DNA from: Deltaproteobacteria bacterium
GTDB taxonomy: Bacteria > Myxococcota_A > UBA9160 > UBA4427
Direction of reading: 5' to 3'
Assembly (NCBI GenBank): GCA_029261855.1
Contig: JAJDAN010000031.1
Location: 62,001 to 126,000 of the forward strand
Length of the DNA: 64,000 nt
How positions within the stretch are numbered: the first letter of the stretch is position 1; the number at the start of each line of letters is the position of its first letter. A model generated the notes under the pieces. It saw nothing but the letters and a program-made list of their open reading frames with translations. It made no database searches and was not told where the DNA came from. Both the position numbers and the translations under genes were made by a program. Shown in pieces: positions 10,988-47,810 of the stretch.

Positions 10988-11206
10988 ATGCTCGTGTGCC
11001 ACTGCAACGGAGTCTCCGACAAGACCGTGCGCCGCGCCGTGCGCGAGGGTGCGCAGTCGGTCTCCGAGGTCGGACGTGCTTGCGGAGCCGGGACCTGCTG
11101 CCAGGGATGCGGGCCCACCATCAGCCGCATCATCCGACACGAGTCGCATCGCCAGGCGAAGACGTCCGTGACGAACTCCGACGCGAGCGCTTCCACGACC
11201 TCCTAG
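10988..11206 (+). CDS. bfd: Bacterioferritin-associated ferredoxin (BFD-like [2Fe-2S])
   Basis: A 72-aa BFD-family protein that reduces the bacterioferritin core so iron can be released. Cluster ligands fit the family spacing: C4 and C6 (CHC) with C38 and C41 (CQGC), 31 residues apart. Two additional cysteines, C32 and C37, are present. The start ATG at 10988 follows a purine-rich GAGGACGGAAACG, and the mRNA would have a leader of about 25 nt. bfr follows 191 bp downstream on the same strand, the expected partner. Confidence 0.9.
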   Translation: MLVCHCNGVSDKTVRRAVREGAQSVSEVGRACGAGTCCQGCGPTISRIIRHESHRQAKTSVTNSDASASTTS

Positions 11207-11210
11207 CGCC

Positions 11211-11275
11211 GCCTCTTTCTCCCGCCTCTTTCTCCTGCCTCTTTCTCCCGCCTCTTTCTCCTGCCTCTTTCTCCC
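11211..11275. repeat. Five-copy 13-bp tandem repeat between bfd and bfr
   Basis: The unit gcctctttctccY is repeated exactly five times, with the last base alternating c/t. A run of cccgc/ccccgcg repeats follows to about 11312. The unit is polypyrimidine on the plus strand and would appear as a pyrimidine-rich tract in a bfd-bfr transcript. A 6-bp stem (11321-11326/11335-11340) lies between it and bfr. I saw no ORF in this 190-bp gap. Confidence 0.9.
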
Positions 11276-11397
11276 GCCCGCCCCGCCCGCCCCGCGCCCC
11301 GCGCCCCGCGCGATCTTGAACGACGGTTTCAGGACCGTCGACAAGTGGCGATCGCGACGCGATTCTCCCGCGACCCGCGCGCAAGGAGGATCTGATC

Positions 11398-11877
11398 ATG
11401 CAGGGCGACCCGAATGTCATCGAAGCGCTGAACGAGGTCCTCACCGCTGAGCTGACGGCGATCAACCAGTACTTCATCCACTACAAGATGTGTGAGAACT
11501 GGGGCTACAAGAAGCTCGCCGCCAAGAAGCGCGAAGAGTCCATCGAAGAGATGAAGCACGCCGACGACGTGATCGAGCGCATCCTCTTCCTCGATGGAGT
11601 CCCCAACATGCAGCGGATGTCTCCGGTGCGGGTCGGAGAAAACCCCATCGAGCAGCACGAGCTCGATCTCGAACTCGAAGCGACGGCCTGCAAGCGACTG
11701 AACGAGGCCGTTGCGCTCTGTCGCGAGAAGGCCGACAACGGGACCCGCGACCTGCTCGAGCACATCCTCAAGGAAGAAGAGGATTCGGTCGACTGGCTCG
11801 AAGCCCAGCTCCACCTGGTCGGGGAAGTCGGCCGGGAGCAGTACCTCGCCGAGATGATCAACGGCGACGACAGCTAG
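11398..11877 (+). CDS. bfr: Bacterioferritin (heme-type ferritin subunit)
   Basis: A 159-aa, 24-mer iron storage protein. Met52, the axial heme ligand shared between two subunits, is present in EMKHADDVIE. Ferroxidase ligands Glu18, Glu51, His54, Glu94 and Glu127 are in place. The position equivalent to E. coli His130 is Ser (EEEDSVDWLE against EEGHIDWLE), so one diiron ligand is missing. A strong AAGGAGG lies 9 nt before the ATG. Downstream, the stop codon sits inside the left arm of the 11874-12041 inverted-repeat element. Confidence 0.94.
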   Translation: MQGDPNVIEALNEVLTAELTAINQYFIHYKMCENWGYKKLAAKKREESIEEMKHADDVIERILFLDGVPNMQRMSPVRVGENPIEQHELDLELEATACKRLNEAVALCREKADNGTRDLLEHILKEEEDSVDWLEAQLHLVGEVGREQYLAEMINGDDS

Positions 11878-12041
11878 GAGCCTGACCCAAGACACGCTCG
11901 CGCCGTCCTGACGCCGATGCATCACCGCTACCGGCGTTGCGCATCGTCGCCGTAGGGCGAACTACGGCCTCCTCCCGCGCCTTGGCAGCGGCGCGCCTCG
12001 ACGCCAGTACTTCCCACGGGAGTCTTGGGTCAGGCTCCTAG
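11874..12041. mobile_element. 168-bp element with perfect 20-bp terminal inverted repeats (MITE/REP-like)
   Basis: The arms at 11874-11893 (begins CTAGGAGCCTGACCC) and 12022-12041 are perfect reverse complements over 20 bp. The interior holds nested hairpins, such as GCCGTAG/CTACGGC at 11949-11955/11962-11968 and ACGCCG/CGGCGT at 11911-11916/11932-11937. It has no coding potential and fills the gap between the convergent bfr and SDR genes. Miniature inverted-repeat or REP-type elements look like this, but no transposase or second copy is in the window. A bidirectional terminator function is an alternative. Confidence 0.55.
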
Positions 12042-12050
12042 ACGCGGGCG

Positions 12051-12824
12051 CTACAGCATGTGCGAGTTGACGGAGACGCCGCCGTCGACCCACAGGGCGT
12101 GGCCCGTCACGAAGCTCGAACGGTCGCTGGCGAGGAAGACGACCGCATCCGCGATCTCCTCGGGTTGGCCGAGCCGGCGCATGGCGTGGGTCCCGATGGT
12201 CTTCTCCTTGGCCTCGGGATAGAAGTCGAAGTAGCGAGCGATGGCCTCGGTGGCGATGCCGCCGGGACAGATCGTGTTGATGCGGATACCGCGCTGGGCG
12301 TACTCGGCGGCCGCCGTCTTCGTCAGGCCCTCGACGCCCCCCTTGGCGGCGGAGTAGGCGGCCAGGAAGGCCTCCCCTTGCAGGCCGGCGGGCGAGCTGA
12401 TGTTCACGATCGACCCGCCTCCCGTCTCGAGCATGCGGATGATCTCCTGCTTGATGCAGAAGAAGGTGCCCGTGAGGGTCACTTCCAGGCCCGACCGCCA
12501 GTCTTCTTCGCGCACCTCGTGAAGCGGCCCGAAGGCCCGCGTGCCCCCCACGGCGTTGTTGCACGCCCAATCGAAGCTGCCGCCGAGCTCGCAGGTGGCG
12601 GCGACCATCTGCGCGACGTCGTCTTCCACGGCGATGTCGACGTGCAGGAAGTCCGCACGTCCGCCTGCGTCGCGGATCTCCTGCACGCAGGACTTGCCGC
12701 CCGCGTCGTCGATGTCGCAGACCAGCACGAAGCTGCCCTGCTCCGCCGCGCGCTTCGCTACGGCGCGACCGATGCCGTTGGCCGCGCCGGTGACCAGGCC
12801 CGACTTTGCTTCGAGATCACCCAT
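12051..12824 (-). CDS. SDR family oxidoreductase
   Basis: A 257-aa classical short-chain dehydrogenase/reductase. The Rossmann glycine motif TGAANGIG is near residue 11. Asp in VCDIDD follows beta-2, which suggests NAD preference. The catalytic elements are NISSPAGL (Ser) and YSAAKGG (Tyr-x3-Lys), followed by the INTICPGGI cofactor loop. The usual NNAG is replaced by NNAVGG. ATG at 12824 was chosen because it begins the Rossmann strand and is preceded by GAGGAGATT; a longer frame exists upstream. The substrate cannot be deduced. Confidence 0.88.
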   Translation of the reverse strand: MGDLEAKSGLVTGAANGIGRAVAKRAAEQGSFVLVCDIDDAGGKSCVQEIRDAGGRADFLHVDIAVEDDVAQMVAATCELGGSFDWACNNAVGGTRAFGPLHEVREEDWRSGLEVTLTGTFFCIKQEIIRMLETGGGSIVNISSPAGLQGEAFLAAYSAAKGGVEGLTKTAAAEYAQRGIRINTICPGGIATEAIARYFDFYPEAKEKTIGTHAMRRLGQPEEIADAVVFLASDRSSFVTGHALWVDGGVSVNSHML

Positions 12825-12887
12825 CGTTTCCAATCTCCTCTCTTGCTCGCCACTCACCACGCGCCACTCGACTGGTCACGAGCCCGC

Positions 12888-15701: not shown

Positions 15702-15712
15702 GCGCGGAAGCT

Positions 15713-22678: not shown

Positions 22679-23425
22679 ATGCGCGCCATCTACTCCTGTG
22701 TGTTCTGGGCGTTCCTGTCCCTGTCCTCCATCGCGATGTTTCCGGTGGCGGTGCTGACCTGGGCGATCACCGCGCCCTTCGACAAGCGTCTCTTCTACCT
22801 GCACCGGGTGACCTGCTTCTGGGCGAGCCTCTACACCTGGCTGAACCCGGCCTGGCCGGTCTCCGTCACGGGTCGGGACGAGATCGACGAGAGCGAGGCC
22901 TGTGTCTTCGTCGCGAACCACCTGTCCCTGGTCGACATCCTGGTGATGTTCCGGATCTTCCGACACTTCAAGTGGGTGTCGAAGGTCGAGAATTTCCGGG
23001 TCCCGTTCATCGGTTGGAACATGCGTCTCAACCGCTACATCGCGCTGACCCGGGGCGACCGCTCGAGCGTCGTCCAGATGATGCGCGAGTGTGAACGGAC
23101 CCTGTCCGAGGGAAACTCGGTCATGATGTTTCCGGAAGGCACCCGATCTCCTTCCGGACGCATGCGTCAGTTCAAGACGGGTGCCTTCGAGATCGCCCTC
23201 AAGACCCGGTCTCCCGTCCACCCGATCGTCCTGAAGGGAACCTCCGACGCGCTCCCGAAGCGCGGCTTCGTCCTACAGGGCCGTCACCCGATCTCGATCA
23301 CGGTGCTCGACCGGATCCCCTACGAGAGCTTCTCCCACATGAACGTCGAAGAGCTGACGGCGCACGTGCGGAGCGTCATCGCGAGCCATCTCGACGAGAA
23401 GCAGCTCGAGCCCACCGACGACTAG
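22679..23425 (+). CDS. plsC: 1-acyl-sn-glycerol-3-phosphate acyltransferase (PlsC family)
   Basis: A 248-aa membrane-bound acyltransferase of phospholipid synthesis. Two N-terminal hydrophobic segments (residues about 3-35) precede the catalytic HX4D motif NHLSLVD, the glycerophosphate-binding region and the FPEGTRS motif. The start at 22679 lacks a Shine-Dalgarno but has TAGGAT 8 nt upstream. It is alone on its strand and converges on menE across a palindrome. Confidence 0.9.
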   Translation: MRAIYSCVFWAFLSLSSIAMFPVAVLTWAITAPFDKRLFYLHRVTCFWASLYTWLNPAWPVSVTGRDEIDESEACVFVANHLSLVDILVMFRIFRHFKWVSKVENFRVPFIGWNMRLNRYIALTRGDRSSVVQMMRECERTLSEGNSVMMFPEGTRSPSGRMRQFKTGAFEIALKTRSPVHPIVLKGTSDALPKRGFVLQGRHPISITVLDRIPYESFSHMNVEELTAHVRSVIASHLDEKQLEPTDD

Positions 23426-23457
23426 CCCCTGATCCGTCATGCACGCATTGGGGCTAG
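23422..23457. terminator. Palindromic bidirectional terminator, AGCCC(C)TGATCCGT family, copy 2
   Basis: CTAGCCCC (23422-23429) and GGGGCTAG (23450-23457) form a perfect 8-bp stem that contains the stop codons of both plsC and menE. The loop carries TGATCCGT, shared with the palindrome at 15713. Its position between convergent gene ends fits a terminator, though there is no T tract. Confidence 0.55.
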
Positions 23458-45735: not shown

Positions 45736-47085
45736 ATGAGCCTCCTCGAAGACACCGCCCACCGCGCAGACCGCTTCCTTCGCGGGCTGGATGACCGCCC
45801 GGTCGTCCCCGAACCCGCGGCCGTATCCCGCCTGGCCCAGTTCCTCGAGCGTCCACTCGACGACGCGCCGACCCCGGACGCCCAGATCCTGGCCTGGCTG
45901 GACGAGTTCGGCTCTCCCGCCGCAGCGGCGACCCAGGGCGGCCGCTACTTCGGATTGGTGATCGGTGGTGCGACCCCGGCAACGCTCGCGGCGAGCTGGC
46001 TGGCTACCGCCTGGGACCAGAACGCCGGGCTGTACATGGCGTCCCCCGTGGCAGCCGAGGTCGAGCAGGCGGCCCTGCGAGATCTGATCGATGTGTTGGG
46101 TCTCCCGTCCGGTTGTGAGGGCGCCTTCGTTACCGGCGCGACCATGGCGTCGTTCACGTCGCTCCTGGCCGCCCGCCATGCGCTGCTGGACCGCCAGGGT
46201 TGGGACGTCGAGGCCGACGGGCTCTTCGGCGCGCCGCGGCTGCGGGTCATCGTCAGCGCGGACATCCATCCTTCGCTCATCAAGGGACTCGGCATGCTGG
46301 GCCTGGGCCGGGGACGCATCGAAACCCTGGCGGTCGACGCACAGGGTCGCATTCGCGAAGAGGAGATCCGACGCATCGACGGTCCGGCCGTCGTGTGTGC
46401 GCAGGCGGGCAACGTGAACACCGGCGCGAGCGACCCCTTCGAAGCGCTCGTCCAGCAGGTGCGCGCGAACGACGGCTGGCTTCACGTGGACGGTGCCTTC
46501 GGTCTGTGGGCCGCGGCGGCGCCGACGCGAAGACACCTGGTCGCGGGCGTCGAGGGCGCGGACTCCTGGGCGACCGACGCCCACAAGTGGCTCAACGTGC
46601 CCTACGACTCGGGTCTCGCCTTCGTCCGGGACGGCGCCGCCCTGCGTGCCGCATGCTCGCTGGACGCCGCCTACATCGCGCACGGAACGAGACGCGAGCC
46701 GAGCGCCACCACCCCGGAGATGTCGCGCAGGGCCCGCGGCATCGAGGTCTGGGCCGCGCTCCAGTCACTCGGCAGGCAGGGCATCGCCGAACTCGTCGAC
46801 CGTTGCTGCCTGCACGCGACGCGCTTCGCAGAGGGCCTGGCGGGCGCGGGCTTCGAGATCCTCAACGACGTCGTCCTCAACCAGGTATTGGTCGCGTTCG
46901 GAGACGCCGACGAGACGGACCGCGTGATCGACGCGGTCCAGCGCGACGGCACCTGCTGGTGCGGGCCGACGATCTTCCAGGGACGCCGGGCCATGCGCAT
47001 CAGCGTGTCGTCGTATGCCACCACGGACGACGACGTCCAACGCAGCCTCGCAGCCATCCTGGCCTGCGCGAAGGGAACGGCCTAG
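45736..47085 (+). CDS. PLP-dependent group II decarboxylase (aromatic-L-amino-acid decarboxylase family)
   Basis: A 449-aa fold-type I decarboxylase. Family motifs are visible: GRYFGLVIGGATPATLAASWLATAWDQN, FVTGATMASFTSLLAARH, CAQAGNVNTGASDPF, HVDGAFGLWAAA and the PLP-lysine motif ATDAHKWLNVPYDSG. Group II enzymes decarboxylate aromatic amino acids, glutamate or histidine, and the exact substrate is not clear. AAGGTGA lies before the ATG. A strong hairpin (47090-47112) follows the stop. Confidence 0.88.
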   Translation: MSLLEDTAHRADRFLRGLDDRPVVPEPAAVSRLAQFLERPLDDAPTPDAQILAWLDEFGSPAAAATQGGRYFGLVIGGATPATLAASWLATAWDQNAGLYMASPVAAEVEQAALRDLIDVLGLPSGCEGAFVTGATMASFTSLLAARHALLDRQGWDVEADGLFGAPRLRVIVSADIHPSLIKGLGMLGLGRGRIETLAVDAQGRIREEEIRRIDGPAVVCAQAGNVNTGASDPFEALVQQVRANDGWLHVDGAFGLWAAAAPTRRHLVAGVEGADSWATDAHKWLNVPYDSGLAFVRDGAALRAACSLDAAYIAHGTRREPSATTPEMSRRARGIEVWAALQSLGRQGIAELVDRCCLHATRFAEGLAGAGFEILNDVVLNQVLVAFGDADETDRVIDAVQRDGTCWCGPTIFQGRRAMRISVSSYATTDDDVQRSLAAILACAKGTA

Positions 47086-47089
47086 GAGC

Positions 47090-47112
47090 GTGCGCGGCGG
47101 AACGCCGCGCAC
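47090..47112. terminator. Strong GC hairpin after the decarboxylase gene
   Basis: GTGCGCGGCG (47090-47099) and CGCCGCGCAC (47103-47112) make a perfect 10-bp stem with a 3-nt loop, 4 nt after the stop codon. A second stem (GCCGAA 47122-47127 / TTCGGC 47136-47141) lies before the convergent TetR stop. The pair probably ends transcription from both sides, although a T tract is lacking. Confidence 0.6.
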
Positions 47113-47144
47113 CCGCAGCAAGCCGAAACCCTGGCTTCGGCCGG

Positions 47145-47810
47145 CTAGGAGCGTGCGCGCGGCGGGGCCGCGAGTCCCCAGAGCAGCACGTCGAGGGTGG
47201 CCTCGTAGAGCGCTTCGGCGGAGCAATCGATCACGCGCGCGCGCCGGGGCGTCACGAGGGCAGCGACTGCGCTGTTTCCCGACCGCCAGATCACATTCGC
47301 CATCACCCAGGGGTCGCAGTCTCGCAGCTCACCCTTGCGCAGGCCGTCCGCGATGACCCGTTCGAGCAAACGCAGGGGCTGCTCCCAGATCTCGCGCACC
47401 TCGGCGAGCAGCCGCGGCGGCAGCTGACCGATGAATTCCTGGTTGTTCACCGCCGAGAAGATGATGAAGTACTCGGGGTGCTCGGTCCAATAGCGACGGT
47501 AGAAGCGACCGATCGACCGCAGTCGGTCGAGGGCGGAGATGGTGTCATCCACTTCGCCTTGCATCTCGTCGGCGAAGCACGCACCTCCGGCTGCGAGGAC
47601 CGCAACGTAGAGCTCGGCCTTGCTCTCGAAGTGGCGATACAAGGTCCCCTTGCCGAGCTCGGCGCGGGACGCGACCTCGTCGAGATTCGTGTCCGCAAAG
47701 CCGTCGCGAAAGAATATCTCGCGAGCCGCCTTCAGGATCCGCGCCCGGGTCGCGGAACGTCCACTCGTCAGGGGAACGACCGTGCGCGCTTCCGGCTTCA
47801 GCGTCGCCAT
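47145..47810 (-). CDS. TetR/AcrR family transcriptional regulator
   Basis: A 221-aa regulator. The HTH is ATRARILKAAREIFFRDGFADTNLDEVASRAELGKGTLYRHFESKAELYVAVL. The C-terminal domain with RRYWTEHPEYFIIFSAVNNQEF resembles FadR/AcrR-like TetR members. It lies 85 bp downstream of the UbiB-like gene on the same strand. No target is obvious. The 85-bp gap holds no element I can support. Confidence 0.88.
   Translation of the reverse strand: MATLKPEARTVVPLTSGRSATRARILKAAREIFFRDGFADTNLDEVASRAELGKGTLYRHFESKAELYVAVLAAGGACFADEMQGEVDDTISALDRLRSIGRFYRRYWTEHPEYFIIFSAVNNQEFIGQLPPRLLAEVREIWEQPLRLLERVIADGLRKGELRDCDPWVMANVIWRSGNSAVAALVTPRRARVIDCSAEALYEATLDVLLWGLAAPPRARS

Follow-up and report, generated by a model that had tools for sequence, protein, structure and literature searches.

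MITEs of the IS1182 family, with ISMac2 as their partner, have been described in Methanosarcina acetivorans, where one type is 160 bp long, is present in 14 copies and has 26-bp repeats and a 4-bp direct repeat, and a second is 169 bp long, with 7 copies, 25-bp repeats and no direct repeat (PMC3852290). MITEPsy1 of Pseudomonas syringae is a 100-bp element with 18-nt repeats that inserts at CTAG (or YTAA) with a 4-nt duplication and whose transposition was observed (PMC3189936). ISPse1, an insertion sequence of the IS1182 family, carries terminal repeats of 16 bp and is associated with a direct repeat of 4 bp (PMC3281130). The 168-bp stretch at 11874-12041 of the window (the whole 64-kb stretch of DNA analyzed here) is in all probability a MITE whose ends, judged by sequence, are those of an IS1182-family insertion sequence. 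It resembles the M. acetivorans elements in its attribution to this family, a likeness drawn from their description rather than their sequence, and it resides in a different host. With MITEPsy1 it shares a short length, the lack of coding capacity and a CTAG target with a 4-nt duplication; MITEPsy1 differs in its length and in its suggested partner, ISPsy2, which is assigned to family 'IS5?' and has no tie to IS1182 in the passages seen. The window element is not described among the literature matches listed, in a search that took in few subscription journals. IS1182 MITEs with 4-bp repeats (PMC3852290) and a CTAG-targeting MITE (PMC3189936) are already known, and the window element is a new example.

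The element lies between two convergent genes (Table 1), with the stop of the SDR-family gene 9 bases from its right end. It begins with CTAGGAGCCTGACCCAAGAC and finishes with GTCTTGGGTCAGGCTCCTAG, and the arms, each CTAGGAGCCTGACCCAAGAC read inward from its own end, pair perfectly for exactly 20 bp (20 end pairs, all perfect). The perfect 20-bp inverted ends reported in a preliminary description of this DNA were confirmed: they form the sole perfect inverted pair of at least 16 bp within 300 bp in the window, and no such pair occurred in any of 20 first-order Markov shuffles of it. As set out below, the outer 4 bp of each arm (CTAG) is evidently the duplicated target, so that the 168 bp comprise a 160-bp element, with a terminal repeat of 16 bp belonging to the element itself, and two 4-bp target copies. 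The hairpins and the lack of coding capacity noted earlier also hold. The predicted fold of -96 kcal/mol is better than that of all 200 dinucleotide shuffles (mean, -77.6 kcal/mol; z -4.33), and no open reading frame of at least 40 amino acids confined to the element was found; five of the six frames are interrupted inside it, while the sixth, on the minus strand, is open after the first codon and continues into bfr antisense.

Table 1. Coordinates of the element and its neighboring genes in the window
Feature	Position	Strand	Basis
bfr (bacterioferritin, putative; name from an earlier reading of the sequence)	11398..11877	+	ORF; TAG stop in left CTAG
Left CTAG target copy, its TAG (11875-11877) being the bfr stop	11874..11877	.	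CTAG pairs and empty sites
Left terminal inverted repeat, GAGCCTGACCCAAGAC	11878..11893	+	Perfect match to right end; 22-base identity to G005 insertion sequence
Non-coding body, long interrupted hairpin	11894..12021	+	Fold z -4.33; doubly changed pairs
Right terminal inverted repeat	12022..12037	-	Perfect pairing with left; 22-base identity to G005 insertion sequence
Right CTAG target copy	12038..12041	.	CTAG pairs and empty sites in relatives
SDR-family gene (putative; name from an earlier reading of the sequence)	12051..12860	-	ORF; convergent with bfr

Further copies were found in the host and beyond it. The host genome (6.96 Mb, 91 contigs) contains three full copies at 100, 91, and 90% identity, plus partial matches, and the element is matched in whole or in part in 24 of 59 relatives (E ≤ 0.001), some of the weak matches perhaps arising by chance. 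Near full-length copies occur in 14 of the 59, spread over four families of one order. The copy in G001, a congeneric genome, resembles the window copy more closely (95%) than either of the other host copies does. In the host and its relatives alike, the element is multicopy at non-homologous sites.

Two inverted matches to the ends, 1.4 kb apart in relative G005, proved to belong to an intact insertion sequence, which the same 20 bp delimit on either side. Its transposase, of 415 residues, scores 305 bits against the NCBIfam IS1182 model NF033551 (cut-off, 270), and 22 of 22 bases at each end are identical between it and the window element. The insertion sequence thus has the same ends and CTAG flanks, and differs from the window element in encoding a transposase. 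Apart from the ends, the element body gave only 10-18-bp matches to the interiors of three such insertion sequences, with no convincing similarity. Relatives of the G005 transposase are present in 7 of the 59 genomes. MITE ends stand beside the transposase on both sides in G005 and in G048 (there with 2 and 3 mismatches in 19) and on one side in each of two remnants, in G054 and G010; in G044 an end lies ~440 bp from the matched transposase piece. A contig edge cuts the transposase locus in G038, where the ends are not beside the matched piece, and none were found beside the matched piece in G036, whose transposase is at 30% identity. A scan of public contigs with the transposase returned nine loci, one of them close (73%, locus L130, in a Myxococcales MAG), and this insertion sequence carries the same ends and CTAG on both sides. 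NF033551 matches 18 of the 59 relatives, 4 of them over the cut-off. No IS1182 transposase was found in the 91-contig draft of the host genome by protein or family model (0 matches), nor in the congeneric G001. The partners of the MITE are in relatives, and its current mobility in the host, known from this draft, is unproven. Separately, 5 of 18 loci scanned (L271 in G008, L273 in G054, L278 in G012, L279 in G018, and L283 in G040) had other transposase genes in or near CTAG-bounded inverted repeats; their IS1182-model matches are all below the cut-off, and the repeat ends differ from those of the MITE.

REP/BIME units associated with Y1 transposases are intergenic palindromic repeats that are not known to have terminal inverted repeats or to duplicate their target. 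The preliminary description left the choice between a MITE and such a unit, and proposed looking for further copies, empty sites and a Y1/IS200-like transposase. The strong hairpins and the intergenic position would suit a unit of the REP/BIME type, mobilized via single-stranded hairpins by a REP-associated tyrosine (Y1) transposase, as would the other short two-hairpin CTAG units in the host genome. That reading is nonetheless very unlikely. The window element has true terminal repeats which, perfect as they are, fit DDE transposition together with the 4-bp target duplication, and the identical ends sit on IS1182-family elements. A Y1/IS200 partner in the host was rejected, as the host genome has no PF01797 match while 5 of 14 control genomes were positive. 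The MITE half of the earlier proposal is therefore supported by the copies, the target duplication, the empty sites and a partner with the same ends, whereas the REP/BIME half is not supported, given the lack of a PF01797 match in the host and a partner that is an IS1182-family DDE transposase.

Evidence on the target comes from a catalog of 65 end pairs in the fetched loci, 49 of which were kept (3 insertion sequences and 46 MITE-sized elements) and 16 dropped (9 mosaics of the A and B repeats described below, 5 compound reads of two host loci, 1 without ends, and 1 duplicate site). Of the 47 insertions that could be evaluated, 39 have CTAG on both sides, and 8 have it on one side only, which we read as later mutation; 2 more insertions are cut by contig ends. 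The base outside the flanking CTAG varies among insertions, and 32 of the 46 MITE-sized copies measure 160-162 bp between CTA and TAG. When the flanks of 15 insertions were joined and searched in 13 genomes, seven of nine insertions in G053 had a contiguous, junction-spanning counterpart in the congeneric G049. A single CTAG was present at five of these seven empty sites (L139, L141, L143, L146, and L147, where 7 extra bases lie close to the junction), while the counterpart of L148 reads TTAG and that of L142 reads TCAG. As for the other two insertions, the L140 site is occupied in both genomes and L145 had no G049 match. The more distant G044 has a single CTAG for L139 and L151, and also for L140 and L146 in gappier alignments; there is no CTAG in the G044 counterparts of L143 and L147 or in the G001 counterparts of L142 and L147. 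Queries with L145, L150, L162, L056, L061, and L003 found no empty site. Because CTAG stands at both ends of most of the MITEs and of the three insertion sequences, and singly in most of the empty G049 sites, it is taken as the duplicated target. On the simplest reading, CTAG is where the element inserts and is duplicated in the process, the sites drifting with divergence; a 2-bp TA duplication inside a fixed CTAG is indistinguishable from this 4-bp duplication.

IS1272, which is counted with the IS1182 family and has terminal repeats of about 16 bp, as the window element does, is reported to replace inverted repeats (stem-loops) without target duplication (PMC5678879). Were the window element to move in the same way, a target hairpin would have been replaced and CTAG would belong to the element, and the sites without CTAG (L142 and L148 in G049, and some of the more distant counterparts) could be cited for this. 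Yet a single CTAG is left at five of the seven empty G049 sites, and in four of them (L139, L141, L143, and L146) the junction loses no stretch, which makes replacement highly improbable; unlike IS1272, the window element duplicates CTAG.

The preliminary description correctly placed the left end over the last codon of bfr, and proposed that insertion had supplied the bfr stop, which is not supported. Since CTAG is the target, the host bfr most likely ended ..AGC TAG before insertion, and its TAG, as far as can be inferred for the window copy, would predate the element. Homologues of bfr were found in 35 of 59 relatives, and 29 loci were fetched, one of them cut off just at the stop; the stops are TAG, TGA or TAA. 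The element is neither single copy nor a constant companion of bfr, given the three full host copies; among the 29 bfr loci, G028 has a clear remnant and G057 a possible short one. In G028 the truncated element directly follows the bfr TAG, while its congener G024 has C-TAG and no element; therefore, the bfr stop was hit in another genus too. In G057, CTAGGAGGCCGACCC at the bfr stop may be a remnant of the element. No clean empty site was found for the window copy: the element is absent from the bfr locus fetched from G001, whose bfr is shorter by one codon and stops at TGA, and no SDR match was found in that locus. Joined flanks of the host copy on contig C43 gave no match in G001. On the other side of bfr, window positions 11206-11290, between the gene and a small open reading frame ending at 11206, hold short C/T-rich repeats (GCCTCTTTCTCC-like units).

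At 36 of 81 insertion sides, the TAG is exactly where a coding-like frame stops (0 and 5 for the other two frames), compared with 96 of 338 sides of solitary CTAGs in an 861-kb host sample (27 and 14 for the other frames), with a p value of 0.007 for the sides and of 0.25 when counted per insertion (21/32 versus 89/169 solitary CTAGs); the comparison is unmatched, its background being the host and its insertions mostly from relatives, and the test for a coding-like frame is crude. An earlier, looser count with mosaics included gave 43/94 versus 95/539 sides. In 6 of 32 insertions, both flanks are coding-like up to the TAG. We rejected a preference for stop codons over and above that for CTAG, as the pattern is mostly explained by where CTAGs lie (per-insertion p of 0.25). 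The element seems to follow the distribution of CTAG, and roughly half of the solitary occurrences of that tetramer coincide with stops.

The body of the element was aligned over 25 of 34 elements of 155-170 bp. RNAalifold predicted 47 pairs, of which 22 had changed on both sides; replacing its innermost helix by the central hairpin seen in the pairing table gave a 49-pair structure in which 94.8% of cells are paired and 22 pairs changed on both sides. Doubly changed cells number 98 in this structure, compared with 28.8 in shuffles and no more than 25 in slid controls, counts to be read knowing that the structure was derived from the alignment on which it was tested, that several rows share a genome (five are from G053), so that events are fewer than cells, and that template-switch repair can mimic compensation in hairpin arms. 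Conserved length and fold over four families suggest a long-lived element. Such compensatory changes and the fixed length might instead point to a domesticated structural element, whatever its origin, kept for a host function as a bidirectional transcript end, an RNA stabilizer or a protein-binding cruciform, and the convergent genes at the window copy and the insertions with coding-like flanks on both sides would accord with this. We consider it improbable, as presence at homologous sites is patchy, no promoter or terminator consensus, including a terminator-like site with a T run, was found in 11700-12200, and the window gave no Rfam match at the gathering threshold. Template-switch correction can, moreover, keep hairpin arms alike without selection.

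For the MITE, we propose that an IS1182-type DDE transposase, not found in the draft host genome today, would have bound in trans to the 16-bp ends, excised the element or made a copy of it, and inserted it at CTAG with a stagger of 4 bp, after which gap repair would have duplicated CTAG. A gene ending ..C TAG would keep its stop on either side of the insertion, and the bfr copy looks harmless because CTAG is palindromic and contains TAG. In the least certain step, the hairpin body would probably be maintained since elements of this length and fold transpose or persist better.

The target itself is scarce in the host. In the 861-kb sample (contig C89, positions 1-400000, contig C21, and the window), CTAG has 278 occurrences and is the least frequent of the eight palindromic tetramers with two G/C (next rarest, GTAC, 1627; AGCT, 4017), some AT-only palindromic tetramers being rarer; the window contains 17 CTAGs where 66 would be expected. 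Consecutive CTAGs nevertheless cluster in the sample, with 48 gaps of <100 bp against ~9 expected at random spacing. Avoidance of CTAG is in print for Haloquadratum (PMC3119063).

Other CTAG-bounded repeats are present in the same genome. Families A (~70 bp) and B (~75 bp) are units of two hairpins each, stacked through shared CTAGs, with one end like that of the MITE and the other ending CAG-CTAG (for example, L019:1390-1530 and L023-L052; C21:188243, 282011, and 381232-381437). For these, 73 matches are listed in the host (E ≤ 10), while only pieces match in 14 of 59 relatives, G001 included; the A/B expansion therefore looks host specific. A further two-hairpin unit of ~63 bp, CTAGGAGCGTGCGCGGCG...CGGCTAG, has the layout of the A and B units with a different sequence (window 47082-47148; C89:21958 and 334658; C21:324705). 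A CTAG-bounded element of ~210 bp with ends CTAGCCC(C/G)GATCCGTCATGC..GCATTGGGGCTAG occurs at C89:152475-152690 and 282617-282829, with a 36-bp form at 23422-23457 of the window and perhaps a lone end at 15711. Finally, a ~180-bp CTAG-bounded element with ends CTAGCCCGGATTATTCATGA, at C21:373895-374078, belongs to a family distinct from the window MITE.

A CTAG-poor host genome with stacked, CTAG-bounded repeat families is more unusual than the MITE. Tentatively, and with some doubt, we suggest that in this lineage several unrelated repeat families might use CTAG as a common landing site and would stack end to end because each insertion makes a second CTAG, with gene stops kept, and that the 160-bp body might be an old, mostly vertically kept mobile cassette, selected for its fold and outliving its autonomous partners in most genomes. 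Duplication of CTAG suggests a reason for the close pairs in which this rare tetramer is found. For annotation, both reading frames neighboring the element look intact. A class of odd palindromes at gene ends in this GC-rich bacterial order is explained as IS1182 MITEs landing on CTAG, not REP sequences, and insertion at the end of a gene can be nearly harmless where the target is palindromic and includes a stop codon.
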